A stretch of DNA of 57,728 nt from a virus. Where the stretch lies: IMG/VR virus record IMGVR_UViG_3300025151_004898, positions 1 through 57,728 of that record; one strand, 5' to 3'. This document shows positions 34,001 to 57,728 of this stretch, piece by piece; position 1 is the first letter of the stretch; the number at the start of each line of letters is the position of its first letter. The translations under genes were made by a program, and so were the position numbers. The notes under the pieces are model-generated. The model did not search any database. It worked only from the letters and a program-made list of their open reading frames with translations, and was not told the origin of the DNA.

Positions 34001-34003
34001 GAA

Positions 34004-35065: not shown

Positions 35066-35066
35066 T

Positions 35067-40488: not shown

Positions 40489-40887
40489 ATGGAAGATATT
40501 TTTAATGGTCATGGAATAGAGATCGATATAAAAGAAAAGGATGATTTCTTAAAAATACGAGAAACACTAACTAGAATGGGAGTTTCTTCTAGAAAAGAAA
40601 ACAAACTATTCCAATCTTGTCATATATTACACAAGCGCGGTCGATATGCTATCATGCACTTCAAAGAGCTGTTTTTGATGGATGGTCTACAGTCTGATAT
40701 AACAGATAACGATCTGGAAAGAAGAAATACCATTGTTGGTCTGTTAGAAGAGTGGGAATTGTTGGAAATACTCGATGAAAATTACGATGATCTTCCAAAG
40801 GCAAGTTTAGCTCAGATAAAAATTATTCCTCACAAAGAAAAGGCGGAATGGGAATTGATTCCAAAATACCATATAGGTAAAAAATAA
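40489..40887 (+). CDS. regA: RegA translational repressor
   Basis: 132 aa (T4 RegA is 122). RNA-binding protein that represses translation of early messages, including gp45, gp44 and gp62 in T4. Typical blocks: IEIDIKEKDDFLKIRETLTR-MGVSSRKEN, LFQSCHILHKRGRYAIMHFK and LERRNTIVGLLEEWELLEIL. Follows gp62 after a 35-base gap with a TACGGAGTAA ribosome site. In T4 gene 43 (polymerase) comes next; here the sugar island begins with a one-base overlap (TAATG). Confidence 0.92.
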   Translation: MEDIFNGHGIEIDIKEKDDFLKIRETLTRMGVSSRKENKLFQSCHILHKRGRYAIMHFKELFLMDGLQSDITDNDLERRNTIVGLLEEWELLEILDENYDDLPKASLAQIKIIPHKEKAEWELIPKYHIGKK

Positions 40888-41528
40888 TGAATTTTAAAGT
40901 GATTAGTTATTATTGTGATGTAGATGAATCTAAATATTACGAAAAATCATACCATAGACTGAAGAACAAATTGGATGAATATGGGTATGATTATCACATT
41001 GAGCATTTACAAAGTCTTGGTTCATATAAAGAAAATTGCAGAAGAAAAATAGACTTTATAATTGAAAAGATTAATCAATTCGATGAGAATTTATTGTGGC
41101 TCGATATTGATACCATACTACTCAAGCGAATGGAACAATTGGAGAGCTTGATTGAGGGACCTGATTTGGTTTTTGCTGGTAGTAGTAAAGATTTGATATC
41201 AATGAAAGCCTCGCCGATACTGTTCATTAATAATGAAAACTCCAGAAAGTTTCTACAGGGATGGAAATCTCTAATAGATATTACTAGAGAAAATGGTGAT
41301 GAGTGTTTTGATCATGAGGTTATGTTCAAATCAATTTTTGATGCAAAGGATTATTGTACATTTGCTGCTGTTGGTTATGAGTACTGCACATGGCCGGGAC
41401 ACGAGAATGAAGATACTGTGATATTGATGGGTCTTTCTGATGTTGATTCTAAGAAAGAGTCTCTACGAAAAATGGGCTTCCAAGAGGGAGCAATAGATTG
41501 GCAAACTGTGGGATTATATAATGAATGA
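40887..41528 (+). CDS. Putative glycosyltransferase (GT-A, DxD-type)
   Basis: 213 aa. VISYYCDVDESKYYEKSYHR, then KNKLDEYGYDYHIEHLQSLG and the acidic motif LLWLDIDTILLKRM (DxD within 'lwlDiDtiv'), typical of small nucleotide-sugar transferases that bind a metal through DxD. The later YEYCTWPGHENEDTVILMG fits the acceptor-side region. First gene of the sugar island, coupled to regA by TAATG and to the next gene by an eight-base overlap. Donor and acceptor unknown. Confidence 0.65.
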   Translation: MNFKVISYYCDVDESKYYEKSYHRLKNKLDEYGYDYHIEHLQSLGSYKENCRRKIDFIIEKINQFDENLLWLDIDTILLKRMEQLESLIEGPDLVFAGSSKDLISMKASPILFINNENSRKFLQGWKSLIDITRENGDECFDHEVMFKSIFDAKDYCTFAAVGYEYCTWPGHENEDTVILMGLSDVDSKKESLRKMGFQEGAIDWQTVGLYNE

Positions 41529-42348
41529 AATAATGTGTGTTGGTCAACCCTTTACTGTTAGTCACTCTTCTTGCTCTGACTTGACACCAGAGTTATTTCG
41601 ATGGACCAGTAAACCTAGTAATACCGATATTGTTGTGTGTATTGATGCTGCAATTGTTGGTGGCTTTGATAGTGATGATTTACCAGAAAATAGATTTGGT
41701 TGGTTGTGTGAGTCTCCGGTTATAATTCCGGACATGTATAGAACTGTGTCTGAGTACGCAGATGCTTTGCTCGAATACTATACCGCACTATTTACATGTG
41801 ATAGTGAGCTTGCTGACGAACACGATAGAATACATCTGATTTCTTCTGGTAGTAATTTGCCATGGACTAAAGATTTTAATGTATACGAAAAAAGTAAAAA
41901 TGTATCGTTGGTCGCTTCTCATAAAAACTTTACAGAGGGGCACAAGTTGCGACATGCATTAGTGGAAGAACATGCTGATGCATTTGATGTTATTGGATCA
42001 ATTAATGGTGAGCGTATTGGTGGTAGTTTGTTTGATAAGATGGAAGGATATCGTGACTATAGGTTCACAGTAGTTGTAGAGAACTGCAAACATGATACCT
42101 ATTATACAGAAAAACTAACTGATGCATTTGCAACTGGGACAATTCCTGTGTACTGGGGATCAGAGAAGGTGCGTGATATTTTTAATCCCGATGGTATTAT
42201 TATGCTAACAGATGATTTTGATTTCTCTCAACTAACAGAGGAACTTTATCAAGAAAAACTAGATGCAGTTAAAGATAATTTTGAACGTGTGAAAAACTTA
42301 AAAATGGCTGATGATGAACTCTACGAAATCATACAAACCTATTGTTAA
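41521..42348 (+). CDS. GT10-family glycosyltransferase (fucosyltransferase-like), copy 1
   Basis: 275 aa. The C-terminal donor-binding motif YRFTVVVENCKHDTYYTEKL-TDAFATGTIPVYWGS followed by FNPDGII is the hallmark of GT10 (alpha-1,3/1,4-fucosyltransferase) enzymes ('f-i-fENs---dYvTEKi-dal--G-iPVywG'). These transfer fucose or similar 6-deoxy sugars from a GDP donor. The N-terminal part includes WLCESPVIIPDM, also usual. It fits the 6-deoxy sugar chemistry downstream. Overlaps the second GT10 gene by 38 bases. Confidence 0.85.
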   Translation: MNEIMCVGQPFTVSHSSCSDLTPELFRWTSKPSNTDIVVCIDAAIVGGFDSDDLPENRFGWLCESPVIIPDMYRTVSEYADALLEYYTALFTCDSELADEHDRIHLISSGSNLPWTKDFNVYEKSKNVSLVASHKNFTEGHKLRHALVEEHADAFDVIGSINGERIGGSLFDKMEGYRDYRFTVVVENCKHDTYYTEKLTDAFATGTIPVYWGSEKVRDIFNPDGIIMLTDDFDFSQLTEELYQEKLDAVKDNFERVKNLKMADDELYEIIQTYC

Positions 42349-43180
42349 AAATGGTAATTACTTATTTTCCTCTAGTATAGAATTTCCGCAACCTGTTGAA
42401 ATTCATTTTGTTCGTATAGAGGAGTTTGACAATTCCGATGCATATAAGGTCTTAGTGCTCTCTAGTGAGAGCGTTCTTTCTCCAAACAGAGAGAGTCTTG
42501 CTTCTGTTGTAGAAAATGCTTCGCGTTATGATTTGATTTTGTGTGCAGATGATGAAATAGTTGATTCATGTCCTAATGCCATATTATTTCCATATGGTTC
42601 TACTTGGCTGAATCGTGGCGAACTTAATCACCCAGACGGGCTTGGATACTTTGATCCAGAAGTACCTACATTCCATAAGCGTGATAGAACAATAAATGAT
42701 GTTAGTTTTCTTGCGTCTTGGTATGATACGGATCGTCAGGGATACAATATAAGAAAAGAAATATGGGACAGACAGGAAGAAATTAATATTCCAATTATGT
42801 TCCATACAAGTAGAAAATCTTTCCTGAATGCCCCAAATCCATTACCCACAGGCGAAAAGGAAGATCTTTTTTATTCTATGTTCCACATCTGCATAGAAAA
42901 TCAATCCGTGCGACATTATTTCACCGAGAAAATTGTTGATGCATTTTTAACATATACAATTCCTGTGTATTGGGGATGTCCAAATATTGGCTCGTATTTT
43001 CATACAGAGGGCATGATTCTGTTTGATACGGTTGATGAACTTATACCAAAATTAAATGAATTGACATATGAATATTATTATGATAAACTAGCATTTGTGG
43101 AAAAAAATAGAAAGATCGCAGAGTCTTATGCCAACTTCGGTGAAAGAATAGCCGAAGCAATCAATACAAAATTAAATTGA
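42311..43180 (+). CDS. GT10-family glycosyltransferase, copy 2
   Basis: 289 aa. Motif FHICIENQSVRHYFTEKIVD-AFLTYTIPVYWGCPN with FHTEGMILFDT matches the GT10 donor site as in copy 1, though overall identity between the two is low (only the motif aligns by eye). It starts inside the end of copy 1 (ATGATG at 42311), so the pair is tightly coupled. Two different GT10 enzymes suggest two linkages or two 6-deoxy sugars. The TTG of a possible longer start of the next gene overlaps its stop. Confidence 0.85.
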   Translation: MMNSTKSYKPIVKNGNYLFSSSIEFPQPVEIHFVRIEEFDNSDAYKVLVLSSESVLSPNRESLASVVENASRYDLILCADDEIVDSCPNAILFPYGSTWLNRGELNHPDGLGYFDPEVPTFHKRDRTINDVSFLASWYDTDRQGYNIRKEIWDRQEEINIPIMFHTSRKSFLNAPNPLPTGEKEDLFYSMFHICIENQSVRHYFTEKIVDAFLTYTIPVYWGCPNIGSYFHTEGMILFDTVDELIPKLNELTYEYYYDKLAFVEKNRKIAESYANFGERIAEAINTKLN

Positions 43181-43197
43181 TATTTAGTGGGAATTTG

Positions 43198-43221
43198 TCA
43201 ATGGAAGAAATTCTAAAACTA
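43198..43221 (+). repeat. 24-base direct repeat, copy 1, over the E1-like gene start
   Basis: Identical over 24 bases to 44498-44521, exactly 1300 bases downstream, with weaker identity extending a few bases upstream. It begins TCAATGGAAGAAATT and contains the ATG of the gene at 43201. Here it is read as MEEILKL. Confidence 0.9.
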
Positions 43222-44535
43222 GTAGAAGAGTATATTACAAAAAAGAATAACGAGAAGACTTGGGTTCCCGGTAAAGATATAGTCCAATATGCTGGACCTT
43301 ATTTTGGTACTGAGGAGTACACCGAGTCAGTTAAGACTCTGTTGAATGGTTGGCTCGTTCTTGGTCAGTCTGGTATTAAGTTTGAAAGAAAGTTTCCTCG
43401 ATTGATGGGTAAGGATTTTGGTATTCTTACCAATAGTGGTAGTAGTTCCAATCTTCTTATGATGTCGGCTCTTACTTCGAAGCGTGGAGCCAATTTACCA
43501 AAGGGAACCAAGGTTATCACTCCCATTGCTGGGTTCCCCACAACAATCAATCCAATTTTTCAAGTGGGGTTCGAGCCAGCGTTTGTTGATATTGACATAG
43601 ACACATTGAACCTAAACTTAGATCAGGTAGAGGAGAGAGCAAAGGAGGGGTGTAAGGTTATTACGTTTGCTCACGTTCTTGGTAACCCACCAAACATGGA
43701 TCGACTCATGGAGATTGTTGATGAGTACGGGTTGATTCTTCTTGAGGACTGCTGTGATGCACTTGGTTCTACTTATCGAGGTAGACCTCTTGGTAGCTAT
43801 GGAGACTATGCATCATGCTCGTTCTACCCTGCCCACCATATCACTATGGGTGAGGGAGGTTTTGTTGCTTGTAATACAAAGAATCAGGAGATCGTTGCTA
43901 GGAGTTTCCGTGAGTGGGGTAGGGGATGTTACTGCGTTGGACAGAAGCAAGGTCTTCTCAAGAATGGTATGTGCAGAAATCGATTTTCTAACTGGTTACC
44001 CGCACTTCCTGATGAAATTTTTGACCATAAGTATGTCTATGATGAGATCGGATACAATCTAAAGCCTACAGATCTACAGGCAGCAATGGGACTTGTTCAA
44101 TTGGAAAGATTGCCTGAGATTATTGAGAAGAGAAAGTATAATCACAAGCGTCTTTGTGATATTTTCTCTCGGTACGAAGAGTACTTTATTATTCCGGAGA
44201 AGACCGATCATTCTGATCCAGCATGGTTTGCTTTTGCACTAACAATACGTGACGGCGCTCCATTTAAGAGAAGAGATATTATTGATTATCTAGAGAACAA
44301 TAAGATACAGACTCGTCCATATTTTGCTGGAAACATAATGTTGCAACCAGCTTACGAGGGATTGATGGATCAGAATGAGGTGATCGAGAAGTATCCCAAT
44401 GCTCGTAAGATTACAACTGATACGTTCTTTTTAGGAACAAGTCCAGTGATAACCGATAATCAGTTGGATTATATTTCTGACGTAATTGATGGATTTATCA
44501 ATGGAAGAAATTCTAAAACTAAAGGGGAGTTATAA
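43201..44535 (+). CDS. E1/RfbH-like PLP 3-dehydratase with Fe-S cysteines
   Basis: 444 aa from ATG 43201 (a TTG at 43177 is possible). DegT/AHBA-fold enzyme. Where aminotransferases have the PLP lysine it has FYPAHHITMGEGG (His-His about 212-213), as in E1/RfbH, which removes the C3 hydroxyl of CDP-4-keto-6-deoxyglucose. Four cysteines (about 185, 243, 245, 258) are spaced C-X57-C-X1-C-X12-C; the E1 [2Fe-2S] motif as I recall it is C-X57-C-X1-C-X7-C, so three of four spacings agree. The usual reductase partner (E3/RfbI) is not in the window. The gene is flanked by 24-base direct repeats, suggesting mosaic insertion. Starts the deoxysugar part of the island. Confidence 0.85.
   Translation: MEEILKLVEEYITKKNNEKTWVPGKDIVQYAGPYFGTEEYTESVKTLLNGWLVLGQSGIKFERKFPRLMGKDFGILTNSGSSSNLLMMSALTSKRGANLPKGTKVITPIAGFPTTINPIFQVGFEPAFVDIDIDTLNLNLDQVEERAKEGCKVITFAHVLGNPPNMDRLMEIVDEYGLILLEDCCDALGSTYRGRPLGSYGDYASCSFYPAHHITMGEGGFVACNTKNQEIVARSFREWGRGCYCVGQKQGLLKNGMCRNRFSNWLPALPDEIFDHKYVYDEIGYNLKPTDLQAAMGLVQLERLPEIIEKRKYNHKRLCDIFSRYEEYFIIPEKTDHSDPAWFAFALTIRDGAPFKRRDIIDYLENNKIQTRPYFAGNIMLQPAYEGLMDQNEVIEKYPNARKITTDTFFLGTSPVITDNQLDYISDVIDGFINGRNSKTKGEL
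44498..44521 (+). repeat. 24-base direct repeat, copy 2, at the E1-like gene end
   Basis: Same 24 bases as 43198-43221 but read in another frame (INGRNSKT), within the last codons of the E1-like gene. The pair brackets the gene nearly exactly, so it marks a likely recombination junction. Confidence 0.9.
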
Positions 44536-44537
44536 TA

Positions 44538-45458
44538 ATGAAAATTACATTTTACAATAGATTCCATCGTGGAGATATACACTTTTCTAGATCGTTTGTA
44601 GAACACACAATTCGTTCTTTGCATAATATTCGTGATGATATTGAGTTTTCGTATATACATGAAAACTCTGCCGATACATTGTCAGATATTCCAAACCTGA
44701 TAGAAATTCCTAACCAAACTATTACTTCAGACATCTGGCCAGATAAATGTATGATGGTTGTTAATAGATCAAATGAAGATGGTGAATTGAGTCTTGGTAT
44801 TAATACGTGGATTGCATCCAATGATCATATATTCAGATCGAATTGTGGCTGTTGTTTCGCTGGAAATTTGGTTATGTGGCAGATGATCTGGAAAATTCTT
44901 GACAATGACCATGGTTTGAAAGTGATGCCCCCAGAAAACCCTCATGATCTATTACCAAAGATTGATTATGATCATTACAATCATTGTTCATTCGTTGATG
45001 ATCATATTAAAAATACAGATGAAAAATATAGGAAACGTATTTTTGTCTCAAATGGTCCTGTATTATCAGGCCAAGCGATTAATTTTGATTTCGATCCAAT
45101 TATAGGTAAGGTTGTAGAAGAGAACCCAGACTGTGTATTTTATTTAACAGACAGTACTAGTCTAGAGGCACCAAATATATACAGTACAAGGGGGCTTATC
45201 AATAAAGACGGATGTGATTTAAATGAGAATTCATACTTGAGCACGTTTTGTGATGTTATTATCGGCCGAGCTTCTGGACCATTTGCATATTCTTGTTGTC
45301 ATACTAACTTCATGGATGAAAATAAAAAGTTTTGTATATTTACGAACGGGGTAGAAGAGGGTGCATGGTTTACTGGTGGTAAATGTAACTATGAATGGTG
45401 CAAGAGTGAAGATATTGCACAGGTAGAAAATATTATTAGAACTAGTATAGGAGAATAA
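44538..45458 (+). CDS. Putative GT-B-like glycosyltransferase or sugar protein
   Basis: 306 aa, not confidently recognised. The C-terminal half reads as a GT-B donor domain: KRIFVSNGPVLSGQAINFDF, VVEENPDCVFYLTDST, then STFCDVIIGRASGPFAYSCC, like the 'adviIgr-SGp---a' segment of GT-B enzymes that find a processed acceptor. The N-terminal half has KITFYNRFHRGDIHFSRSFV. Strong AAGGGGAG ribosome site at 44521-44528. Cysteine content is high for the area. Function in glycan assembly is inferred from the neighbours. Confidence 0.55.
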   Translation: MKITFYNRFHRGDIHFSRSFVEHTIRSLHNIRDDIEFSYIHENSADTLSDIPNLIEIPNQTITSDIWPDKCMMVVNRSNEDGELSLGINTWIASNDHIFRSNCGCCFAGNLVMWQMIWKILDNDHGLKVMPPENPHDLLPKIDYDHYNHCSFVDDHIKNTDEKYRKRIFVSNGPVLSGQAINFDFDPIIGKVVEENPDCVFYLTDSTSLEAPNIYSTRGLINKDGCDLNENSYLSTFCDVIIGRASGPFAYSCCHTNFMDENKKFCIFTNGVEEGAWFTGGKCNYEWCKSEDIAQVENIIRTSIGE

Positions 45459-45459
45459 A

Positions 45460-45807
45460 ATGGAATTTACTAATACACTTGAGGATTTAATTAAAGATCA
45501 TGTTGATGCAATTTGTTCTGAAAGAGCCATGGTGGAGCTACCAGATAATCTTATTGCAACAGATAATTTGGCGGAAGTGATTGAGAAACTTGTTATTCTT
45601 CATATCCGAACATGGATGTTGGAGGACAGAGTTGGTGTTGCGACTGAGGATTCTGAGGTTGCGTCACTTAAAAAGAAAATTGATATTTGTTTCAAACAGA
45701 AGCGTCCCTCCTATATTGAAGCAATCAATAGAATGATTGATGATGCCATCATTAATCGCACACCTTTAGTGGAGGACAGCGTAAAGTCATATGAAGGACA
45801 TGAGTGA
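45460..45807 (+). CDS. Small helical protein (weak DUF4254-like pattern)
   Basis: 115 aa, helical. LAEVIEKLVILHIRTWMLED, then VGVATEDSEVASLKKKIDIC with FKQKRPSYIEAINRMIDDAI recalls the DUF4254 pattern of surface-glycan clusters ('W-lED--r---a-D-eva--Kr-ID--NqkR---ie-iD'). Function unknown; similar small proteins accompany nucleotide-sugar genes. Starts one base after the previous stop and overlaps the next start by 17 bases. Confidence 0.5.
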   Translation: MEFTNTLEDLIKDHVDAICSERAMVELPDNLIATDNLAEVIEKLVILHIRTWMLEDRVGVATEDSEVASLKKKIDICFKQKRPSYIEAINRMIDDAIINRTPLVEDSVKSYEGHE

Positions 45808-46561
45808 TTGTTTAGTGGTAGGAGATACATCTCAGATATCTCACTGCCTTCCTTCTTCGTTTTCTCGTGTTTCTTCTAGAAATTTTGATGCAGATTTAGT
45901 TGATGATTATGATAGAATCTTTATCTGTTTTGCGGAGCAGAGAACATTTGACAACTCATTAGACTTCATGGAAGTAAACTATGATTATACTTTGTCAATG
46001 ATCGATGATTTATTGCCCAAGTGTAATGAACTAGTTTTTTATTCGACTGCTATGTTATGGGAAAAACGTAAATCATATTCGATTGATGATGATTATGCAT
46101 ATGATAAACGAAATAATTATTTGGTTTCTAAACAGAAGATAACAGATGAGTTGAAGGGGAAGGATAGTGTGTTGATTCATTATCCATGCAATTTCAATTC
46201 AACTAAACGTAAAGATGGATATTTGTTTTCTAAATTGATTGATGCGTGTGCAGGTAATCCCATAATAACGGGCAATCTGGATTTTAATCGAGAGCTAGTA
46301 CATGCCTCTTATGTTGCGAATACCTCATTGTATTCGGACGAATCTAGGATTATTGCTCCTGGCTATCTTACAAATGTACGTAAGTATTTTCATGATGTCA
46401 TGGAACATTTTGGTGCTTCTCCCGAACTAATAACAGAAAATGCATCGGCAAAGTATATGCCTAAACCAAATTCTATGCACTCGGTTGTTGATAAAACGTA
46501 TGGGTATGATAGACTAGTTGAAGATACAATCATAGACATTGGGAGACATCTTAGTGATTAA
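45791..46561 (+). CDS. Degenerate extended SDR (epimerase/reductase-like)
   Basis: 256 aa. Overall layout of an NAD-dependent epimerase: an N-terminal strand with DCLVVGDTSQIS in place of the GxxGxxG loop (mostly lost), FICFAEQRTFDNS, ELVFYSTAMLW in the position of the catalytic Ser strand, and NYLVSKQKI carrying the YxxxK pair. Lack of the glycine motif suggests weak or altered cofactor binding. The ATG at 45791 or at 45800 could be the start. It may be a structural partner or an enzyme with changed chemistry. Confidence 0.55.
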   Translation: MKDMSDCLVVGDTSQISHCLPSSFSRVSSRNFDADLVDDYDRIFICFAEQRTFDNSLDFMEVNYDYTLSMIDDLLPKCNELVFYSTAMLWEKRKSYSIDDDYAYDKRNNYLVSKQKITDELKGKDSVLIHYPCNFNSTKRKDGYLFSKLIDACAGNPIITGNLDFNRELVHASYVANTSLYSDESRIIAPGYLTNVRKYFHDVMEHFGASPELITENASAKYMPKPNSMHSVVDKTYGYDRLVEDTIIDIGRHLSD

Positions 46562-47705
46562 TCTTGTAGAAGATACAATCTGTTCTGACGATATACAGTC
46601 ATTGATATCGTGGTTAGAAACCAATCCTCGTTTGACAAAGGGTGAGCAGACAACTTTATTTGAACAAGAGTGGTCGGCGTTTACTGGAGTTAAGCATTCG
46701 GTTTTTGTTAATTCTGGTTCTTCTGCTAATCTTGGGATTATATCTGCCTTGGTTCAGTCTAATAAGTTAAAGAACAAAAAGGTTCTTGTGCCAGCAGTAT
46801 CTTGGTCAACTACAGTTGCTCCTGTAATACAGTGTGGACTTACACCAATTCTGGTTGATGCTGACGAGAATAATTTGGGTATTTGTATTGCTGATCTGGA
46901 AAGAAAACTCAATGAGCATGAGCCAGCGGCGTGTGTGCTTGTCCATGTACTTGGATTTCCTTGTCACATGAAAGAGATTATGTCTCTTTGTGAATATCAC
47001 GATACGCTTGTGATTGAGGACAGTTGTGAAAGTATTGGTTCTGTTTATCAGGGTAAGAAAACTGGGTGCTTTGGACTAGCATCTTCGTTTTCGTTTTACT
47101 TTGGTCACCATATGTCCACTATTGAGGGTGGGATGATATGCACGAATGATGATGAATTTTATGATTTACTAAAATCAATTCGTTCTCATGGTTGGGACAG
47201 GGACATCCATCCCACCAAACAAAAAGAACTTCGTCAAAAATATAATGTTGATGATTTTACTGCGCTGTATACATTCTATCACGATGGATTCAATCTAAGG
47301 TCAACCGATCTCCAAGCATTTATTGGTAGAAGGCAGTTAACTAAACTGTCCCACATAATTTCCAACAGACAACGAAATTTTTATTACTATGATACTATGT
47401 CCAATCAAGAGTGGAAACCCAAACCTGTTGGTGAAGTCATTTCTAATTTTGCATATCCAATAATTTCTAAGAACAAGAAACTTCTGATTTCAAATCTGAA
47501 GGAAGCAGGAGTGGAGTGTAGACCTCTTGTGTGTGGGTCCATTGGAAAGCAGCCATTTTGGGTGAATAAATATGGTGAATGCTCATTACCAGTGGCTGAT
47601 AGAGTTCATAAGTACGGTCTATATGTACCAAACCATCCGGGAATGTCATTGCATGACGTAGAAAAAGTTTGTGATGTTATTAATAAAACAGAAGGATGTG
47701 ACTAG
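46554..47705 (+). CDS. ColD-like PLP 3-dehydratase (His-type)
   Basis: 383 aa from a GTG at 46554, chosen for the GGGAG eight bases upstream; a TTG at 46539 is the alternative. T4-type phage genes rarely start so, but the overlap with the previous stop is short. DegT-fold enzyme: VNSGSSANLGIISALVQS, IEDSCESIGSVYQGKKTG, and at the PLP-lysine position SFYFGHHMSTIEGG (His-His about 185-186), the pattern of ColD, GDP-4-keto-6-deoxymannose 3-dehydratase of the GDP-colitose pathway. ColD is about 388 aa. It lacks the E1 cysteine set, so it differs from the enzyme at 43201. RLRSTDLQAFIGRRQL-type segment (FNLRSTDLQAFIG) is also conserved. Confidence 0.87.
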   Translation: MINLVEDTICSDDIQSLISWLETNPRLTKGEQTTLFEQEWSAFTGVKHSVFVNSGSSANLGIISALVQSNKLKNKKVLVPAVSWSTTVAPVIQCGLTPILVDADENNLGICIADLERKLNEHEPAACVLVHVLGFPCHMKEIMSLCEYHDTLVIEDSCESIGSVYQGKKTGCFGLASSFSFYFGHHMSTIEGGMICTNDDEFYDLLKSIRSHGWDRDIHPTKQKELRQKYNVDDFTALYTFYHDGFNLRSTDLQAFIGRRQLTKLSHIISNRQRNFYYYDTMSNQEWKPKPVGEVISNFAYPIISKNKKLLISNLKEAGVECRPLVCGSIGKQPFWVNKYGECSLPVADRVHKYGLYVPNHPGMSLHDVEKVCDVINKTEGCD

Positions 47706-47708
47706 ATT

Positions 47709-48662: not shown

Positions 48663-48666
48663 CCAC

Positions 48667-49692
48667 ATGTCAATTGATTTAAAAATTCTAGACTGCACTC
48701 TAAGAGATGGTGGTTATGTTAATAGTTTTTCGTTTGGTGAAGAAAACATAAGAAAGATTGTTGATGGATTAACTTCCAGTGGAGTAGACATTATTGAGAT
48801 TGGTTTTCTGAAAGACGGAAACCACGGTGCAAACCAAACACTATTCAATAGAGTTTCAGAAGCAGAAAAGTTTACTACAGACAATCAAGAATATTGTTTG
48901 ATGATTAGACCAGACTGGTATGACATTGAACAGTTGGAGTCTTGCACGGGAAACATTGCCAATCTTCGTTTTGCTTTTCATTATACAGATATGGAACTAG
49001 CATTAGACCACGCAAAGTTTGCTAGAGAACTCGGTTACAATATTTTCTTTAACCCTGTGTCTATTTTAAATTATAGCAAAGCAGAACTAAAAGATATGTT
49101 AACTCGTTTGAATGAGTTCTCTCCTGCCGGTGTTAGCATAGTAGATACATTTGGTTCTCTCGTTCCGTCTGATCTTCACGATATGTTTTCAACATTCAAT
49201 GAGTTTTTGGACGATCATATTGGTCTGGGGTTACATCTACACGAAAACCTCTCCTTATCGATGTCACTTGCCACGCACTTCATTGAGTTAATGAAAAACT
49301 CTATACGAACAGCATACCTTGACTCCTCCGTTCTTGGTATGGGGAGAGTTCCCGGTAACCTATGCACTGAATTACTACTACCATATGTGAACCGAGTAGT
49401 TCAAGATAAATATGACTTAAGTGAAATCTACAAACTAATAGATGATCCCATTTCAACTATTAGAGAAACTGTGTCATGGGGGTATATGCCAGCATATGCA
49501 ATCACAGGGTTCCTTAACATCCACAGATCATATGCAGAACATTTGATGGATAAACGAGATATATCTCTTGAATCTATTAATATTATTTTAGACAAAGTGG
49601 CAAGAAGCGGGAATGGTGAAAACTTTACTGAATCTCTGGTGGACGAGATCTATGAGGAATGTATGAATGAGAAAAACTGTCAAAGTATCTGA
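48667..49692 (+). CDS. DRE-TIM metallolyase/aldolase (HMGL-like)
   Basis: 341 aa. The opening KILDCTLRDGGYVN is the DRE-TIM metal/substrate motif of the 4-hydroxy-2-oxovalerate aldolase, HMG-CoA lyase and isopropylmalate synthase superfamily. LGLHLHENLSLSMSLATHFI holds the HxH metal ligands, and AYLDSSVLGMGRVPGNLCTE the 'D-S--GmGr-pGN--tE' segment. Such proteins occur with a thiamine-diphosphate enzyme in surface-sugar clusters, as here (overlap of 26 bases). Likely cleaves or joins a keto-acid-type unit; exact reaction unknown. Confidence 0.85.
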   Translation: MSIDLKILDCTLRDGGYVNSFSFGEENIRKIVDGLTSSGVDIIEIGFLKDGNHGANQTLFNRVSEAEKFTTDNQEYCLMIRPDWYDIEQLESCTGNIANLRFAFHYTDMELALDHAKFARELGYNIFFNPVSILNYSKAELKDMLTRLNEFSPAGVSIVDTFGSLVPSDLHDMFSTFNEFLDDHIGLGLHLHENLSLSMSLATHFIELMKNSIRTAYLDSSVLGMGRVPGNLCTELLLPYVNRVVQDKYDLSEIYKLIDDPISTIRETVSWGYMPAYAITGFLNIHRSYAEHLMDKRDISLESINIILDKVARSGNGENFTESLVDEIYEECMNEKNCQSI

Positions 49693-51457
49693 TTATATTG
49701 TTGACTTTTTTGTAAACAACAATATTAATAAATGTTTCGTCGTCACCGGAGGCGGTGCTATGCACATGAATGATAGTTTCGGACACAGTAAAGATGTTCA
49801 GTGTATTTACAACCACCACGAACAAGCGTCTGCTATGTCCGCTGAAGGATACACTAGGGTGTCGGGCAACCCCGCCATTGTATCTGTTACATCCGGACCC
49901 GGAACAACGAACGCACTAACTGGTGTTCTGGGTGCTTGGTTGGACTCTATTCCTATGGTGATTTTATCTGGTCAAATGAATTTTGACACTACGATTGAGT
50001 CAACACCAGTTCCACTTCGACAACTTGGATTCCAAGAATTCAACATTATCGATAGTGTTAAACCAATGACAAAATATGCAGAGATGGTAGAAGATCCCAG
50101 ATACATTGCCTATCATTTGGAAAAAGCACTGTTCTTATCACAGAACGGCAGGAAGGGCCCGGTGTGGTTGGACATTCCGCTCAATGTTCAGTCTGCTGTT
50201 ATTGATGTAGATGATCTCATTCATTATAAATCCCCTAGTTTATTTTCGGGTGATTTTGATATGGATTTAATTTTTGATAAACTTAATCAGGCAAAGAAAC
50301 CAGTTTTGTTTGCAGGGTATGGTGTAAGAATGTCTGATTCATATAAAACCTTCTTGAAGGTTGTGTCTAAACTTAAGATACCAGTCGTGACTGAATGGAA
50401 CTCGAATGATTTAATTTGGTCAGATCACGACTATTATGCAGGTCGAGCAGGAACAATAGGAGACAGAGGAGGAAATTTTGTGGTTCAAAATTCTGACTTA
50501 CTTCTTTGTGTTGGTTGTCAATTTTCTATAAGACAATTGAGTTATCGCTGGGAAAATTTTGCTAAGGGTGCATATAAGATAGCAGTAGATGTAGATGAGA
50601 ATGAACTCGTTAAACCAATTGTCAAGATTGATTATCCAATACACTCTGATGTTGGAGTCTTTTTGGATTCTGTTCTTCTCAGCGACAATTCCTCCGTTCA
50701 TGATTATTCATCTAAGTGGAATACATGGACAAGAGACATCAACAACAAATATCCTGTGGTTTCTGATAGACACCTTTCACAGAAGTCTCCTCTGAGTATC
50801 TACTCTTTTATGAAATCTTTATCTGAATGTCTTACCGAGGACGATGTTGTTGTTATCGCAAATGGTGCCGCTTGTGTCGCTGGTCTCCAAGCGATCAACA
50901 TAAAAGAGGGGCAACGGGTGTTCACAAATGCAGGGGCATCCAGTATGGGCTACGGCATCGCTGCGGCAATTGGTTCTTGTTACGCCAAAGAAAAGGTAAT
51001 CTGCATCGAGGGCGATGGTTCTATTCAGATGAATCTACAAGAACTACAGACTATCGCACACAATAATCTTAATGTAAAAATTATTTGGATTAACAACGAT
51101 GGGTATCAGTCCATCAAACAAACACAGGCATCTATGTTCGAGGCAGAAAAACGAGGTTATTGTGGGGCAAACTGCGACAGTGGAATTGGATTCCCTTCGG
51201 CGGAAAAGATAGCAAAAGCATATGGGTTGAATTTTTATAAGATAGATCATGTAGATGATATGAAATCTACCCTAGAAATATTTTACGATTCTGATGGACC
51301 AGCAATATGTGAGGTTGTCACTATCCCTGATGAAAAGTTTGAACCAAAGTTGCAGTCCAAACTCCTAAACGATGGTACATTCCAAACACCATCTCTTGAG
51401 GACATGTATCCGTTTCTGTCTAGAGATGAAATGGAAGAAAACATCTTCATTCCATGA
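49667..51457 (+). CDS. Thiamine-diphosphate enzyme, acetolactate-synthase-like
   Basis: 596 aa, complete three-domain ThDP enzyme. The active Glu is in YNHHEQASAMSAEGYTRVSG (about residue 52), SVTSGPGTTNALTGVLGAWL is the Pyr-domain helix, and GDGSIQMNLQELQTIAHNNL with WINNDGYQSIKQTQ is the Mg/ThDP site. In yersiniose synthesis a homologue (YerE) adds a two-carbon acetyl unit from pyruvate to a 4-keto 3,6-dideoxy sugar; with the dehydratases here a branched sugar is a plausible product, but true acetolactate or sulfopyruvate-type reactions are not excluded. The stop overlaps the next start as ATGA. Confidence 0.9.
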   Translation: MRKTVKVSDYIVDFFVNNNINKCFVVTGGGAMHMNDSFGHSKDVQCIYNHHEQASAMSAEGYTRVSGNPAIVSVTSGPGTTNALTGVLGAWLDSIPMVILSGQMNFDTTIESTPVPLRQLGFQEFNIIDSVKPMTKYAEMVEDPRYIAYHLEKALFLSQNGRKGPVWLDIPLNVQSAVIDVDDLIHYKSPSLFSGDFDMDLIFDKLNQAKKPVLFAGYGVRMSDSYKTFLKVVSKLKIPVVTEWNSNDLIWSDHDYYAGRAGTIGDRGGNFVVQNSDLLLCVGCQFSIRQLSYRWENFAKGAYKIAVDVDENELVKPIVKIDYPIHSDVGVFLDSVLLSDNSSVHDYSSKWNTWTRDINNKYPVVSDRHLSQKSPLSIYSFMKSLSECLTEDDVVVIANGAACVAGLQAINIKEGQRVFTNAGASSMGYGIAAAIGSCYAKEKVICIEGDGSIQMNLQELQTIAHNNLNVKIIWINNDGYQSIKQTQASMFEAEKRGYCGANCDSGIGFPSAEKIAKAYGLNFYKIDHVDDMKSTLEIFYDSDGPAICEVVTIPDEKFEPKLQSKLLNDGTFQTPSLEDMYPFLSRDEMEENIFIP

Positions 51458-52794
51458 GAAAAGATATAGACAATGATGTAAGATTGTTTTTCCCAAACAA
51501 GACTAGGTTATTGCTCTTTGGGGGGAACTGTTTACTTGCAAAACGATTATATGAAATCATTAAACGAGATCTATTTGTCAGAAGAATAGACTACAGCGAA
51601 AACAACTCCGTTACGAAAATAAAAAGTCTATTAGAATATCAGGATGGGGATACTCTGATTTTCACTAGTGAGTTATTGCTTTTTTTATCAGATGAGGAAT
51701 ACTTAAATTTTACGGAAACTCTTGTAGACATAAAAACAAACACTAATACTAAATTGGTTTTTATTTCTATTACCGATCCTCTCCACATGGAAAAGCAGGG
51801 TGATAGTTATCTGTTAAAAAATATGAGGTGTGATGAAACCTATGTATCCCGTGTGGATCGCATAACAGATACACTCAACGATACAGATCTTATCTATGAG
51901 GTTCCTTCTTACTACACATATGTAGAATCCAATTTACAAATCAATCCCGTAACATTTGAAGGTAACTTAATCACACCAGAGAAACACGCTAAAGCATCTT
52001 ATTTTTTCTTTAGTGATGATATCATATCTGATGTGGTAAAGAAAATAAATGATGTGGGGTGGACAACCCCCTATTGGGATTCACCAGATAAAATGACACC
52101 AAGTGAATTCATGCTCAAGTTAAATACACCTGATTCTGAATACTCAAAGGTTGTTAATCAAACAAAGTGTTCATTGACAATACTATATCGTAAAGATTCA
52201 TATGATATGTCTAACGGTGGAACTGTAGCAAACTTTAGAGTTAATCTTGGTAAGTCTCTATGTAAGAAAATACCATTCTCTATCAGAGAAAAACTCGATA
52301 TGATTATCCCTGTTCCAGAGACGGGTAAGTATTATGCACAGGGATTGGCATCAGAACTTAATAAAAATTATGTCGAAGCGATATACAAAAAGGTAGAAGT
52401 TGGTAGGAGTTTTGATGTCTCTGATGTAAGTAAAAGAAACAAAATAATTAAATCTAAACTGGGTTTACATAAAAATATGGTGAAGGGGAAAACAATAGGA
52501 ATAGTGGATGAGGCAATATTCACAGGTTCGACTTTAAAGATTGTAAGCGACATGCTGAGAGAAGCGAAGGCAAGAGAAGTTTATTTTTTCATACCAAGTC
52601 CCACCTGTAAGAGTAGATGTAAATACAACATGCAACCCGATAGAGAACTTCTTTTACAAAAAATAAATGAAAAGGATTTAATTTCCTACTTCAACGTGGA
52701 TGGTATATTTTTTCAAGACAGTGAAGCATATGATAGTTCCATATCAAAGACAAACTACACATGCTCCGAGTGTTTTCATAAAGAGCAATTATGA
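51454..52794 (+). CDS. Fusion: Rossmann-like N-terminus and PurF-like phosphoribosyltransferase
   Basis: 446 aa. The N-terminal 200 residues start RLLLFGGNCLLAKRLYEIIK, like a degenerate SDR/NAD domain, with no YxxxK seen. The C-terminal domain resembles amidophosphoribosyltransferase without its glutaminase: MIIPVPETGKYYAQGLASEL, VEVGRSFDVSD-SKRNKIIKSK, the PRPP-type loop IGIVDEAIFTGSTLKIVSDM and FFIPSPTCKSRCKYNMQPD. The loop reads VDEAIFTGST where PurF has VDDSIVRGTT. A fused, orphan PRTase in a sugar cluster is unusual; it may use PRPP to make a pentose-phosphate unit. Coupled to both neighbours by ATGA. Confidence 0.75.
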   Translation: MRKDIDNDVRLFFPNKTRLLLFGGNCLLAKRLYEIIKRDLFVRRIDYSENNSVTKIKSLLEYQDGDTLIFTSELLLFLSDEEYLNFTETLVDIKTNTNTKLVFISITDPLHMEKQGDSYLLKNMRCDETYVSRVDRITDTLNDTDLIYEVPSYYTYVESNLQINPVTFEGNLITPEKHAKASYFFFSDDIISDVVKKINDVGWTTPYWDSPDKMTPSEFMLKLNTPDSEYSKVVNQTKCSLTILYRKDSYDMSNGGTVANFRVNLGKSLCKKIPFSIREKLDMIIPVPETGKYYAQGLASELNKNYVEAIYKKVEVGRSFDVSDVSKRNKIIKSKLGLHKNMVKGKTIGIVDEAIFTGSTLKIVSDMLREAKAREVYFFIPSPTCKSRCKYNMQPDRELLLQKINEKDLISYFNVDGIFFQDSEAYDSSISKTNYTCSECFHKEQL

Positions 52795-53381
52795 ATTTAT
52801 TGAACGATAATTACTACAGGCATGTTATTTTTGATTTAGACGGAACCCTAATTAATTCCGCTCCCTCTATATTGAATTCTATGGGGTCAGCGATAAAGGA
52901 AAGTGGATATACCCCCCTGCTAAGTTTAGACTCGTCTTTAATTGGGCCACCGCTATATGAGACAATTGCAAATGTGACGGGGCTCACCGAGTCATGTGAA
53001 CTGAATTTAATTGTTGATAGATTTAAAAAGCAATACGACGAGAAAGATTGTTTAGATGTAACTTGTTTTTCTGGTGCTTCATCTATTTTGGAAAGAATTA
53101 AGTTGGACAGCAATCTAATCTTAGCAACAAATAAAAGATTAATTCCAACAGAAAAAATATTGAAACACTTGGAGTGGGATGATATGTTTAACTCCATCTA
53201 CACGCTCGATACATTCGATCCCCCCTTGAAAAATAAAACAGAACTTCTAAGAAAAGTTATTTCAGAGGAGGAGATAAATACAGATGAGGCGGTATACATT
53301 GGTGACAGATTAGATGACGAATTTGCCGCAAAAGAAAATAAAATTTCATTTATTATGGTTGATTGGAGTTATTCGATATGA
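52791..53381 (+). CDS. HAD-family phosphatase
   Basis: 196 aa, Gph-like HAD hydrolase. Motif I VIFDLDGTLINSAPS (nucleophile Asp), motif II ILATNKRLIPT, Lys in motif III region (PPLKNKTELLRKVI), and motif IV VYIGDRLDDEFAA. Acts on small phosphorylated metabolites, likely a sugar or pentose phosphate given the neighbours, especially the PRTase fusion before it. Both gene ends overlap neighbours as ATGA, so it is part of the same translational chain. Confidence 0.9.
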   Translation: MNLLNDNYYRHVIFDLDGTLINSAPSILNSMGSAIKESGYTPLLSLDSSLIGPPLYETIANVTGLTESCELNLIVDRFKKQYDEKDCLDVTCFSGASSILERIKLDSNLILATNKRLIPTEKILKHLEWDDMFNSIYTLDTFDPPLKNKTELLRKVISEEEINTDEAVYIGDRLDDEFAAKENKISFIMVDWSYSI

Positions 53382-54229
53382 TAGTACAAATTACTCTTAC
53401 CCGAGACGAATTGTTTTTAATTAAAGAGATGTTACCACAGTGGCAAAAGTACGCAGATGCTTTTGTTTTCATGGTTGATAGATCCGTTGATGGGACATAT
53501 GAGTTCTTAATGGAAAATAAAGAAAAGTACAATATTCTCAGTGTTCTACAAACTAACTGGGAGATGGATGGGTTAACTGTAGAAACTGATGAGAGGCAAA
53601 GATTATATGATGAAGCATTCAAACACAGTGGAAAAATCATATGTCTTGATACTGATGAATATATTGATGGTAATGTCACCAAGGAACAACTGGAAGGTGT
53701 CTTGGAACAAAATAAAAATTCTTTGTTTATGGCACCATGGATTCAATATACAGGAAAAAATAATATAAGAGTGGACGGTCCTTGGAGAACTAATTACAAG
53801 GATAGAATTGGTTCTTATGAAAAGAGAGGTGAGTTCGCAGACGCAGTACGTCACTCGGAACATATGCCATTGAGCGACAATACATACAGCTTTCAATATC
53901 CACAATTATTCATATCACATCTTCAGTGGTTAGATAAAGTTACCGTTGCTGTTAAGCAATATTATTGGAAGATTTCTGATTATGTTGCTAATCATGAGCA
54001 TGGAGCAGAAATAATTCCCTCTTACTTATATGATCAGTCCGTCAATAATTTTGAATGGGAATATGCAGAAATAGATTTTCCTTTGTTAGTTGACGAGCAC
54101 ATTTATGATAAGAATGATTTGGAAAATAGTTTTAAGTATCAATATATTAAAAATAATGTCGAGAAGTATGATATTCCAAACATGAATGATTGGGGACTAG
54201 GTATTCACTCTGGGGAGCTGTTCAAATGA
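53378..54229 (+). CDS. Glycosyltransferase family 2-like protein
   Basis: 283 aa from the ATG at 53378 (ATGA overlap; a TTG at 53363 is rejected). IVQITLTRDELFLIKEMLPQ-WQKYADAFVFMVDRSVDGTY is the start of a GT2-like nucleotide-sugar fold ('...D-S-DgT--'), and KIICLDTDEYIDGNVT holds the DxDE metal motif. The second half (RVDGPWRTNYKDRIGSYEKR, FISHLQWLDKVTVAVKQYYW) is similar to other phage and bacterial GT2 relatives. Acts on an unknown acceptor. Confidence 0.72.
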   Translation: MIVQITLTRDELFLIKEMLPQWQKYADAFVFMVDRSVDGTYEFLMENKEKYNILSVLQTNWEMDGLTVETDERQRLYDEAFKHSGKIICLDTDEYIDGNVTKEQLEGVLEQNKNSLFMAPWIQYTGKNNIRVDGPWRTNYKDRIGSYEKRGEFADAVRHSEHMPLSDNTYSFQYPQLFISHLQWLDKVTVAVKQYYWKISDYVANHEHGAEIIPSYLYDQSVNNFEWEYAEIDFPLLVDEHIYDKNDLENSFKYQYIKNNVEKYDIPNMNDWGLGIHSGELFK

Positions 54230-55014
54230 GAGTTTTAGTAACAGGAGCGAACGGGTATGTTGCTAGGAGTTTAATTCAAAATTTTTCCAACAAATATGAT
54301 ATGGTCGGGATATCAAGAGATGATTTTGATTTGACTGATACAAGAGCTACGTGTGAGTGGTTCGCAGATAATCATTTTGATGTAGTGCTGCACACCGCAA
54401 TTGTTGGTGGGAATAGATTGAATCAAGACACGCATGATGTTACTGATCAGAATTTGTTGATGTATTATAACTTACTGGGTAACAGAGAAAGCTATGGTAA
54501 GTTTATAAATTTTGGTTCTGGTGCAGAACAATTTCAACCACATTCTCCTTATGGAATAAGTAAAAAAATAATAGCCGATTCTGTTGCTAATACAGAAGAT
54601 TTTTATAACATACGCATATTTGGTGTTTTCGATGAGAATGAATTGGATCGACGTTTTATTCTTTCGAATATGCTTCGTTATCTCAATAAAGAGTCAATGA
54701 TTATTCATGAAAATAAGTTGATGGATTTTTTCTACATGAAGGATCTGGTTTCGGTAGTGGAGTATTACATCGAACACTCTCAGTTATCCAAGCAGGTTAA
54801 TTGTTGTTATAATGAAAAATATACTCTTTACTCCATAGCTCAGATGATAAATCAGTTGAGTGATTATGACGTTCCTATTGAGGTTCCGAGTAAGAGTGTG
54901 AGTAGCTATTACTGTGGAGAGTCTATTTTACCTCCTATAAATATTATTGGATTGCAGTCCGGAATACTAAATATGTTTGAACAATTACAAAAAGGATATA
55001 GTTATTATGAGTAA
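54226..55014 (+). CDS. NAD-dependent epimerase/reductase (GDP-fucose/colitose synthase-like)
   Basis: 262 aa from the ATG at 54226 (ATGA overlap with the previous stop). RVLVTGANGYVARSLIQNFS is a near-complete GxxGxxG loop; DDFDLTDTRATCEWFADNHF with DVVLHTAIVGGNRLNQD recalls GDP-L-fucose synthase ('D--D---v---f---k-d-v-h-AA-vGG'); FINFGSGAEQF gives the Ser strand, SPYGISKKIIADSV the YxxxK pair. ColC, GDP-colitose synthase, is of this type, so it may be the closing epimerase/reductase for a ColD product. Shorter than fucose synthase (about 320). Confidence 0.8.
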   Translation: MRVLVTGANGYVARSLIQNFSNKYDMVGISRDDFDLTDTRATCEWFADNHFDVVLHTAIVGGNRLNQDTHDVTDQNLLMYYNLLGNRESYGKFINFGSGAEQFQPHSPYGISKKIIADSVANTEDFYNIRIFGVFDENELDRRFILSNMLRYLNKESMIIHENKLMDFFYMKDLVSVVEYYIEHSQLSKQVNCCYNEKYTLYSIAQMINQLSDYDVPIEVPSKSVSSYYCGESILPPINIIGLQSGILNMFEQLQKGYSYYE

Positions 55015-56257
55015 ACCCACAGTTACATTGTGCATGATTGTAAAGGATGAGACACATGTTATTGAGCAGTGTCTTCGCTCCATGGCAAAATATGTGGATA
55101 GATATGACATCACTGATACTGGATCGACTGATGGAACACCAGAACTTATTGAGAAGGTAATGAATGAACTTGGAGTTCCCGGTAAGGTGTACCTTTCTGA
55201 CTGGAAGGGGTTTGGTGATCATGCAAATCGAATTGGTTCTAGAACAGAGGCATTCCATAATGCAGAAGCTGGTGGTGCGGACTATGCGTGGGTGATTGAT
55301 GCTGATGATTACATTGAGGGTGAGTTTCAGTATCCTGAAAACATGACATCTGATGGGTATACTCTATTAATCAAGCGGGGTGATTTCAGTTGGTGGAGGA
55401 ATCAGATTTTCCGGTTGGATCTTGGTTGGCGATATGTTGGCGTTCTTCATGAATATGCAGATGCAACCAAGAAGAGTCCTGCTGCATTTGCAAAGATAGA
55501 GGGGAACTATCACGTTACCGCCAGAACAGAGGGAGCAAGGAACGTTGGTATTACTCCTTTTGAGAAATATGCTAGGGACGCAGAATTATTGGAGAAAGCG
55601 TTAGAGGATGAGCCAGACAATGCTAGGTATCAATTCTATCTTGGGCAGAGTTATTTTGATTCTCAGCAGTGGGAAAAATCAAAGGAAGCATATAGGAAGC
55701 GGGTCGAGATGGGTGGTTGGCCAGAAGAGGTTTTCTATTCCCAGTTCCGAGTTGGTTTGTTGTGTGGGTTCACTAAGGATCCATTTGAGGTTATTGTCAA
55801 GGAATTGATAGAAGCATATAACATTCGCCCAACTCGTGCTGAACCGTTGGTTGAATTGTCGAGGATTTATAGGATGACAGATAAACCTTCTGCTGCATAC
55901 ATCTTTGCAAAACTTGCCGCCGAAACACCATATCCTGCGGATGATATTCTGTTTATAAGTGATGATGTTTATAGGTTTGGTGCTTTGGATGAGCTTGGTG
56001 CTGTTGCATATTATGCAGGGAGACCTCTCGAAGGATATAACGCATGTAAGATGCTCGTAGAAGAAAATAGAGCACCAGCAGACCATGCGGAAAGAGTCAA
56101 GACAAATCTAAAGCAGTATGAGGATGTTATTCAACAAATGGCACCAGCAAATCAACCAGAAGTCATACACAAAAAGCTAGATACTCTAAAGGAAAAACAA
56201 AAAGAGCTAAAAACTTCAGCTAAAAATTTTAAGAAAAAGAAAGTAAAAAGTAGGTAA
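55007..56257 (+). CDS. GT2 glycosyltransferase with TPR-like C-terminus
   Basis: 416 aa from the ATG at 55007, which overlaps the previous stop by eight bases (AAGGA upstream). VTLCMIVKDETHVIEQCLRS and DITDTGSTDGTPELIEKV are the GT2 nucleotide-sugar signature; YAWVIDADDYIEG is the DxDD metal motif. After about residue 200 TPR-like helices follow (NARYQFYLGQSYFDSQQWEK, SKEAYRKRVEMGGWPEEVFY). The C-terminus is basic and coiled. TPR-linked GT2 enzymes often modify protein chains; the adjacent collagen-like fibre is a natural candidate. Last gene of the island. Confidence 0.85.
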   Translation: MSKPTVTLCMIVKDETHVIEQCLRSMAKYVDRYDITDTGSTDGTPELIEKVMNELGVPGKVYLSDWKGFGDHANRIGSRTEAFHNAEAGGADYAWVIDADDYIEGEFQYPENMTSDGYTLLIKRGDFSWWRNQIFRLDLGWRYVGVLHEYADATKKSPAAFAKIEGNYHVTARTEGARNVGITPFEKYARDAELLEKALEDEPDNARYQFYLGQSYFDSQQWEKSKEAYRKRVEMGGWPEEVFYSQFRVGLLCGFTKDPFEVIVKELIEAYNIRPTRAEPLVELSRIYRMTDKPSAAYIFAKLAAETPYPADDILFISDDVYRFGALDELGAVAYYAGRPLEGYNACKMLVEENRAPADHAERVKTNLKQYEDVIQQMAPANQPEVIHKKLDTLKEKQKELKTSAKNFKKKKVKSR

Positions 56258-57550: not shown

Positions 57551-57728
57551 ATGAGTGCGTATTTCCCTAAAAATCCATCAGACGGAGAAAAAGTTACCAT
57601 TGGATCAAAGCAATGGGAATTTTCATCAACTTATGGTGTTTGGAATAAGGTTGGTGGGGACGGTTCTACAGGAGCCACAGGAGCCGCTGGTGTCACAGGT
57701 GCCACTGGTGCCACGGGTGCAACTGGTG
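57551..57728 (+). CDS. Collagen-like fibre protein, N-terminal part (cut by window end)
   Basis: 59 complete codons are visible and the frame stays open. MSAYFPKNPSDGEKVTIGSK-QWEFSSTYGVWNKVGG is a short chaperone-free N-terminal module of tail fibres ('P-dg---t-g-----y-...gvW-kv'), then Gly-Ala-Thr repeats (GATGAAGVTGATGATGATG) begin, in contrast to the Lys/Asp-rich repeats of the previous gene. Partial at the 3' end. Preceded by a late promoter element. Confidence 0.85.
   Translation, partial: MSAYFPKNPSDGEKVTIGSKQWEFSSTYGVWNKVGGDGSTGATGAAGVTGATGATGATG

Follow-up and report, generated by a model that had tools for sequence, protein, structure and literature searches.

A candidate branched-sugar biosynthesis island between regA and gene 43 in a T4-like phage genome fragment

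The described pathways closest to the locus reported here are those for yersiniose and erwiniose, in which DdhA-D act together with the thiamine diphosphate (ThDP) carboligases YerE or ErwE. The substrate to which YerE attaches an acetyl unit is CDP-3,6-dideoxy-4-ketoglucose, and the preferred donors of ErwE are 4-hydroxy-2-oxo acids (PMC12247030). Ketone acceptance is confined to three of nine ThDP superfamilies, namely decarboxylase/YerE-like, transketolase and alpha-keto-acid dehydrogenase 2, and it is these that branch sugars; viruses were named as an unexplored source of such ketone-accepting enzymes (PMC12247030). The window analyzed here is the whole of IMG/VR virus record IMGVR_UViG_3300025151_004898 (57,728 bases) which includes an island of 16 genes, designated i01 to i16, at positions 40887-56257 between the regA gene and genes for collagen-like fibres.

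The island resembles the yersiniose and erwiniose systems in encoding a 4,6-dehydratase, an E1-type 3-dehydratase with intact residues, a YerE-like carboligase and an aldolase of the right type for an ErwE-like donor. It differs in being phage-borne, in lacking both a nucleotidyltransferase and the E3 reductase, in having a dTDP-type dehydratase, and in possessing extra phosphoribosyltransferase (PRT) and HAD genes. In the cultured cyanophage S-B43 (MN018232), a run of ~16 genes on one strand between fibre genes and DNA polymerase includes an RfbH homologue (44%), a GT11 protein and epimerases, but no ThDP carboligase, i15 homologue, i16 homologue or collagen-like run was found there and the genomic setting is different. 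The hypervariable host recognition cluster of pelagimyophages, which are related phages, likewise combines glycosyltransferases with collagen-repeat fibres, but lies between vrlC and gp14 instead of after regA; the available part of that account reports only sugar clusters of 2-3 genes outside the host recognition cluster and mentions no branched-sugar pathway (PMC7029224). The fibril clusters of Megavirinae also are clade-specific and pair virus-encoded rare-sugar pathways with transferases that decorate virion fibres. However, these belong to eukaryotic giant viruses, the enzymes are unrelated and the accessible portion of the source does not mention carbon branching (PMC10117803).

Judged from its gene content, the island quite probably makes a 3,6-dideoxysugar with a carbon branch, as in yersiniose and erwiniose. 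The carbon-branching step, which the original prediction for this DNA missed, is the main point of the analysis. The wider proposal is that a modular glycan-biosynthesis island between regA and gene 43 would make the branched sugar and attach it to collagen-like fibres, with the module exchanged among relatives. This proposal draws on sequence comparison and modelled structures, and the case for it is evenly balanced.

The putative carbon-branching slot and a proposed deoxysugar pathway

The genes assigned to sugar synthesis, all by similarity, are as follows.
i04, 43177..44535, plus strand: RfbH/E1 nucleoside diphosphate (NDP)-4-keto-6-deoxyglucose 3-dehydratase; NF011936, 470.1 bits; PDB 3BCX/3BB8 closest
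i07, 45791..46561, plus strand: partner of i08; no family match; the i07-i08 pair recurs in loci L082 and L031
i08, 46539..47705, plus strand: ColD-like 3-dehydratase, by alignment; closest PDB entries 2GMS and ColD 3GR9
i09, 47709..48662, plus strand: NDP-glucose 4,6-dehydratase, dTDP-type by profile; TIGR01181, TIGR02622
i10, 48667..49692, plus strand: HMGL/4-hydroxy-2-oxovalerate aldolase-like, at the start of the exchanged module; PF00682; PDB 3DXI, 4LRS
i11, 49667..51457, plus strand: YerE-like ThDP carboligase; PDB 8RPH, 1.4e-112; 5AHK, 5.6e-75
i12, 51454..52794, plus strand: PurF-like PRT domain protein, module member; PF00156; also in L132 and L192
i13, 52791..53381, plus strand: HAD phosphatase, module member; PF13419; also in L132
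i15, 54190..55014, plus strand: NAD-dependent epimerase/dehydratase, candidate side-chain ketoreductase; PF01370, 4.3e-18; marks the far end of the carboligase slot in 51 loci

Of the two structures closest to i11, 5AHK is YerE of P. protegens. The other, 8RPH, was identified in PMC12188165 as JanthE, a carboligase of the YerE-like group that accepts ketones. The ThDP motifs of i11 are present (catalytic E52, G449DG and N476) and the catalytic Glu is retained in 40 of 40 sequences. Among phage homologues in the comparison set described below, four have the CDG motif, as described for JanthE, and five have GEG in place of GDG. No YerE-like enzyme of the i11 type was found in annotated GenBank phage genomes, in which the best matches have ~30% identity and are mostly in records named as bacterial chromosomes or in unannotated fragments. 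A scan of viral contigs with i11 as single protein gave no pattern match, which reflects a limit of the method since relatives occur in loci gathered by other means.

The content of the interval between the homologues of i09 (RmlB) and i15 was posed as a question before the list of three ketone-accepting superfamilies was known. The viral comparison set, L001-L160, comprised 80 RfbH loci and the 80 clamp-loader loci most similar to that of the window; the search criterion was similarity to gp44 or RfbH and the loci are mutually related, so the counts given here are not of independent events. The interval contains a ThDP enzyme in 51 of 51 viral loci, which form 45 groups at 97% RmlB identity. 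By Pfam, the enzyme is YerE-like in 29 groups, a split E1-dehydrogenase-like protein in 10, and a split transketolase-like protein in 6. These classes are exactly the three superfamilies listed as sugar-branching, and the occupation of one slot by three distinct ThDP classes argues strongly for a single chemical role. A ThDP enzyme also is present in 62 of 63 RfbH-centred viral loci that extend at least 6 kb downstream. The partner enzymes in the slot vary, and include HMGL with PRT and HAD (the window and L132), PanB, an HpcH/HpaI aldolase, NeuB, and SDR with DHQ synthase. For several of these enzymes, 2-oxo acids or keto sugars are substrates or products. The superfamily of i10 handles 4-hydroxy-2-oxo acids, the ErwE-like type of donor. 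The more specific profiles for i10 (PRK08195, 94 bits) and i12 (TIGR01134, 95 bits) score below their cut-offs of 229 and 350, respectively. In more distant viral loci (L147-L160) the ThDP enzyme usually lies immediately after RfbH and the RmlB gene often is elsewhere.

The DNA of L082 has 83% identity to the window up to position 48660, which is two bases before i09 ends and the exchanged module begins, and the carboligase of L082 beyond this breakpoint has only 43% identity to i11. The coincidence of the homology break with the end of i09, together with the divergence of the carboligase, indicates that the branching module is exchanged as a block. The module also has bacterial counterparts: among 80 bacterial loci that encode relatives of i11 at 45-55% identity, mostly from Clostridia and Bacteroidota, 53 have RfbH within 10 kb and 48 have HMGL, and one such locus, L192, has an HMGL-TPP-PRT arrangement.

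The NF011936 score of i04 exceeds the curated equivalog cut-off of 423. The protein aligns along its length with Yersinia E1 (3BCX), with H220 in place of the pyridoxal phosphate (PLP) lysine and with C193, C251, C253 and C266 in register, cysteines which are taken to be the [2Fe-2S] cluster ligands. The His and all four cysteines are kept in 85 of 85 viral and 51 of 51 cellular homologues. In i08, His also replaces the PLP Lys and there are no Fe-S cysteines, the pattern of ColD. Aminotransferases have Lys at this site, and an aminotransferase assignment for i08 was rejected accordingly. As i04 and i08 are two different 3-deoxygenating enzymes, two sugars are probably made.

A pathway can be proposed from these assignments. 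Host dTDP- or CDP-glucose would be oxidized by i09 to the 4-keto-6-deoxy sugar, from which i04, a pyridoxamine phosphate/[2Fe-2S] enzyme of E1 type working with a host reductase, would remove O-3 to give the 3,6-dideoxy-4-ketose. Aldol addition by i10 would supply a 4-hydroxy-2-oxo acid, the aldehyde for which perhaps is prepared by i12 and i13, although this detail is speculative. The carboligase i11 would decarboxylate this acid and place the acyl unit on the C4 ketone, creating a tertiary alcohol and the carbon branch, and i15 would reduce the ketone of the side chain. A second, colitose-like 3,6-dideoxysugar may come from i07 and i08.

Placement of the island between regA and gene 43

The protein families in the record are those of a T4-like myovirus. 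They include the ssDNA-binding protein, baseplate, terminase, protease, scaffold and major head proteins, UvsY, a UvsW-like helicase and a late sigma factor. The nearest relative of its RegA is that of Pelagibacter phage HTVC008M (63% identity), and the phage that carries the island is a marine, Kyanoviridae-like member of the T4-like group. A search of the record for tRNA genes found none. The flanks of the island are formed by these genes.
regA, 40489..40887, plus strand: left boundary of the island; PF01818, 139.5 bits
Collagen-like (GXY) protein gene, 56257..57525, plus strand: candidate glycan acceptor; PF01391, 1.7e-28, four stretches
Start of a second collagen-like fibre gene, 57551..57728, plus strand: Thr-rich G-A-T repeats, read from the sequence; runs off the end of the contig

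The 16 open reading frames that tile the island all lie on the plus strand and encode 115-596 amino acids each. Eleven of the 15 internal junctions overlap by 4-40 nt and the other four have gaps of 1-4 nt, whereas at both ends, regA/i01 and i16/collagen gene, the overlap is 1 nt. The start codon is uncertain for some of the genes; for i16, alignment places it at ATG 55007 and not TTG 54977. The original prediction of a tightly packed, mostly overlapping 16-gene sugar island after regA thus agrees with the tiling and junctions. Its reference to fibres in the plural also is correct as there are two GXY reading frames beyond the island.

The earlier placement of the island at the site where T4 has its polymerase gene holds for the position after regA, but not for a substitution of that gene. 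In HTVC008M, polB follows regA by ~220 bases with one small open reading frame between them. Of the related loci, 65 extend 3 kb or more past regA, and in only one of these (L103) does polB start within 3 kb, unlike in the T4 arrangement, where gene 43 directly succeeds the clamp loader genes and regA. Instead, the order in G001, G002, G005 and G007 is regA, island, i16, polB and uvsX, with collagen genes ahead of polB in G005 and G007. The regA-polB distance is ~14 kb in G001, 14.5 kb in G002, 31 kb in G005 and 28 kb in G007. The search for gene 43 outside the window that had been suggested therefore is answered in relatives, and the window itself ends within the fibre genes, ahead of the expected polB. 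Loss or replacement of polB was rejected on this basis: the island marks a hotspot of insertion that separates regA from gene 43, which is displaced and not substituted.

Such islands are common in this clade. A gene of the i01 family directly follows regA in 43 of 83 related loci. This frequency, the single instance of polB within 3 kb of regA, and the run of 16 genes in S-B43 do not support the earlier view that phages of this type seldom carry so large a sugar locus. In the independent contig L082, collinear blocks that begin ahead of regA and extend to i09 inclusive match the window at 82-86% identity; the island is not an assembly artefact. In L099, tblastn gives fragmented clamp, gp44, regA and several island genes, which suggests frameshift errors in that assembly. 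A second phage group has related RfbH-carboligase cassettes downstream of uvsX (L088, L091 and L116), situated before gp41 in L088 and L116; the cassette moves between insertion sites.

The gene order 5' of the island is clamp, gp44, SET, GroES-like, gp62 and regA. The SET-domain and GroES-like genes (39432-40071) separate gp44 from gp62 within the clamp-loader operon, and in relatives are present singly, together or not at all. Further upstream, at 33251-36656, are adjacent genes for a PALP/threonine dehydratase-like PLP enzyme, a glutamine-synthetase-like protein and an N6/N4 DNA methylase-like protein, an unusual trio that could be a cluster for modification of DNA bases or amino acids. Unlike most neighbouring genes, regA has the motif TATAAATA in the 130 bases ahead of it in 16 of 81 relatives, and ATAAATA in 36; regA and the island may be served by a separate promoter. 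A sigma-70 promoter scan showed no excess over shuffled sequences (66 versus 66.2). Terminator predictions exceeded shuffles (17 versus 8.8), yet nearly all sites are intragenic and the scan is uninformative.

Candidate glycosyltransferases and the proposed glycan acceptor

The glycosyltransferase candidates and the two remaining island genes are listed here.
i01, 40887..41528, plus strand: GT-A-fold glycosyltransferase; AlphaFold model pLDDT 92.3; PDB 2P6W, E 5.5e-8; DxD D73/D75 conserved
i02, 41521..42348, plus strand: GT10 glycosyltransferase; PF00852, 4.4e-10
i03, 42311..43180, plus strand: GT10-like glycosyltransferase; PF00852, 3.7e-5, at the cut-off
i14, 53363..54229, plus strand: GT2-like glycosyltransferase, usually adjoining RfbH in relatives; hhalign to i16; DxD conserved
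i16, 54977..56257 (likely ATG 55007), plus strand: GT2 and TPR, protein-glycosyltransferase-like; PF00535, weak TPR
i05, 44538..45458, plus strand: no family match; orthologue in L082
i06, 45460..45807, plus strand: DUF4254-like; PF14063, 19 bits, below the cut-off of 27

The prediction of at least five candidate glycosyltransferases is supported, with i02, i03 and i16 recognized by Pfam, i14 by profile match and i01 by predicted fold. The best PDB match to i01 by fold comparison is 2P6W, the PBCV-1 capsid glycosyltransferase, a match that does not fix the substrate; the protein matched nothing in Pfam, PHROG or GenBank phages. PHROG scans of i05 and i14 also returned nothing. The i14 profile had no match in PDB, and the assignment came from profile-profile comparison with i16 (hhalign probability 95%, E 2e-8). 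The predicted structure of i16 (pLDDT 86.5) has SunS/ThuS peptide glycosyltransferases at PDB ranks 1 to 6, and sequence matches include GmaR. In the model i16 shares with SunS/ThuS both the fold and the domain arrangement, a GT2 domain followed by a C-terminal domain of TPR-like helices. The gene is kept at the right end of the island, before collagen genes or polB, even in islands without RfbH. The soluble glycosyltransferases i01, i02, i03 and i14, and perhaps i05, would assemble an oligosaccharide that i16 would link to protein, the most likely acceptors being the collagen-like fibres encoded next to the island.

No strong transmembrane-like segment was detected in the island proteins (highest 19-residue Kyte-Doolittle mean 1.81, in i11), and no Wzz was found in the record or in six relatives. 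Together with the lack of NTP_transferase (PF00483; glucose-1-phosphate nucleotidyltransferase) in the same sequences, this suggests that sugars come from host NDP-glucose and that the glycan is built in the cytoplasm. If a glycan is made, the evidence leans slightly to a fibre or other virion protein as its acceptor. Fibre glycosylation is preferred over modification of the host O-chain because of the peptide-glycosyltransferase fold of i16 and the abutting fibre genes: collagen-like genes come straight after i16 in the window and in several relatives, and some of these genes have Thr-rich G-A-T repeats. BclA of the Bacillus exosporium is a precedent for a collagen-like glycoprotein. Virus-made glycans on Megavirinae fibrils (PMC10117803) and mycobacteriophage virion glycosylation (cited in PMC12619734) are further precedents.

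Several points weigh against the proposed pathway and acceptor. The absence of PF00483, and of an E3-type reductase domain in family scans of the 16 island proteins, means that the host must supply both activities. The expectation of a near-complete deoxysugar pathway thus stands for the dehydratases and associated enzymes but not for the nucleotidyltransferase. Yersinia E1 is CDP-linked, while i09 scores as dTDP-type: it does not qualify as a CDP-glucose 4,6-dehydratase (TIGR02622, 69 bits; cut-off 278) and is better fitted by the dTDP-type profile, albeit below the cut-off (TIGR01181, 290.7 bits; cut-off 365). The role of i15 as terminal ketoreductase is indicated by superfamily and gene position only, and i07 has no assignment. 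The 51 and 62 loci with ThDP enzymes are related and not independent, and RfbH linkage was built into the second sample. The identity of i16 to SunS/ThuS, whose substrates are small secreted peptides, is 16-19% with TM 0.5-0.65, values that do not determine its substrate; the GT-A match similarly leaves that of i01 undecided. No GXY run lies between the island and polB in several larger relatives (G001 and G002). The late-promoter motif TATAAATA is 71 nt ahead of the likely i16 ATG, but the match total is at chance level (7 versus 6.0) and the motif is not conserved before i16 (4 of 20 relatives); a late promoter at this site was not used as evidence. Finally, pathways of this kind normally serve lipopolysaccharide (LPS) or capsule in bacteria, which favours the host surface as acceptor (PMC12247030).

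Modification of the host O-chain is a serious rival to fibre glycosylation. The same branched sugar could be added to host LPS or surface polysaccharide during infection, thereby blocking superinfection by competing phages, an explanation that is possible if on the doubtful side. LPS sugars are a known setting of YerE-like enzymes (PMC12247030), bacterial loci link the pathway to RfbH and aldolase genes, and O-chain modification has been proposed for pelagimyophage glycosyltransferases (PMC7029224). Moreover, the 1-nt overlap of i01 with the regA operon makes early or middle expression plausible. Conversely, the lack of Wzz and of strong transmembrane segments leaves the island without a flippase, polymerase or Gtr-type membrane protein, and the terminal transferase i16, which is conserved and lies against fibre genes, has the fold of a peptide glycosyltransferase. 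Glycosylation of phage DNA, comparable to the glucosylation of hydroxymethylcytosine in T4, is highly improbable: the island's transferases have no match among known DNA glycosyltransferase families, i16 is protein-glycosyltransferase-like, and no PF00303 protein (dCMP hydroxymethylase superfamily) was found in eight relatives of up to 128 kb, records that possibly are incomplete. This stands against the frequency of DNA glycosyltransferases in T4-like phages and the DNA methylase-like gene upstream of the island (35028-36656). The original prediction had left fibres, host surface and DNA open as acceptors; a glycan role is upheld, with the evidence favouring fibres and speaking against DNA glucosylation of the T4 type.

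Alternatively, the sugars may be unbranched, with i11 an acetolactate-synthase-like enzyme of other function and the genes passively acquired O-antigen fragments. The region clearly is a recombination hotspot and i11 matches acetolactate synthase profiles, albeit at 302 bits against the TIGR00118 cut-off of 538. Nevertheless, this explanation is unlikely given the three ThDP superfamilies in one slot beside intact RfbH and RmlB homologues, the conserved catalytic residues of i11, and nearest structures that are YerE-like. A chimeric assembly of phage and bacterial DNA might be suspected in a metagenomic contig that ends in a repetitive gene. The recurrence of the same island and junctions in L082, L081, L083, L087, L056 and others refutes a chimera, the probability of which is negligible; the concern that the island might be confined to one assembly is dispelled likewise.

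Proposed branched sugars in the biology of T4-like phages

Phage-encoded glycans usually are discussed as modifications of DNA or O-antigen, whereas the genes described here point to C-branched deoxysugars, a class of sugar known from bacterial LPS and antibiotics. No report of branched-chain sugars in phages was found in the open-access literature searched, which lacks most subscription papers. The phages repeatedly swap the carbon-branching enzyme and keep the remaining pathway. With the branching module swapped as a block among relatives, the rare sugar on display would differ from phage to phage. It is a tentative but sizeable possibility that the clade runs a plug-in branching system in which a fixed RmlB-RfbH-reductase chassis accepts an exchangeable carboligase module from any of three ThDP superfamilies, and that the resulting lineage-specific glycan coat on the fibres may act as a display in an arms race, much like the coats that giant viruses carry in clade-specific form. 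The loci provide dozens of candidate ketone-accepting carboligases for biocatalysis, and the question of why sugar genes are abundant in marine T4-like phages becomes directly testable.

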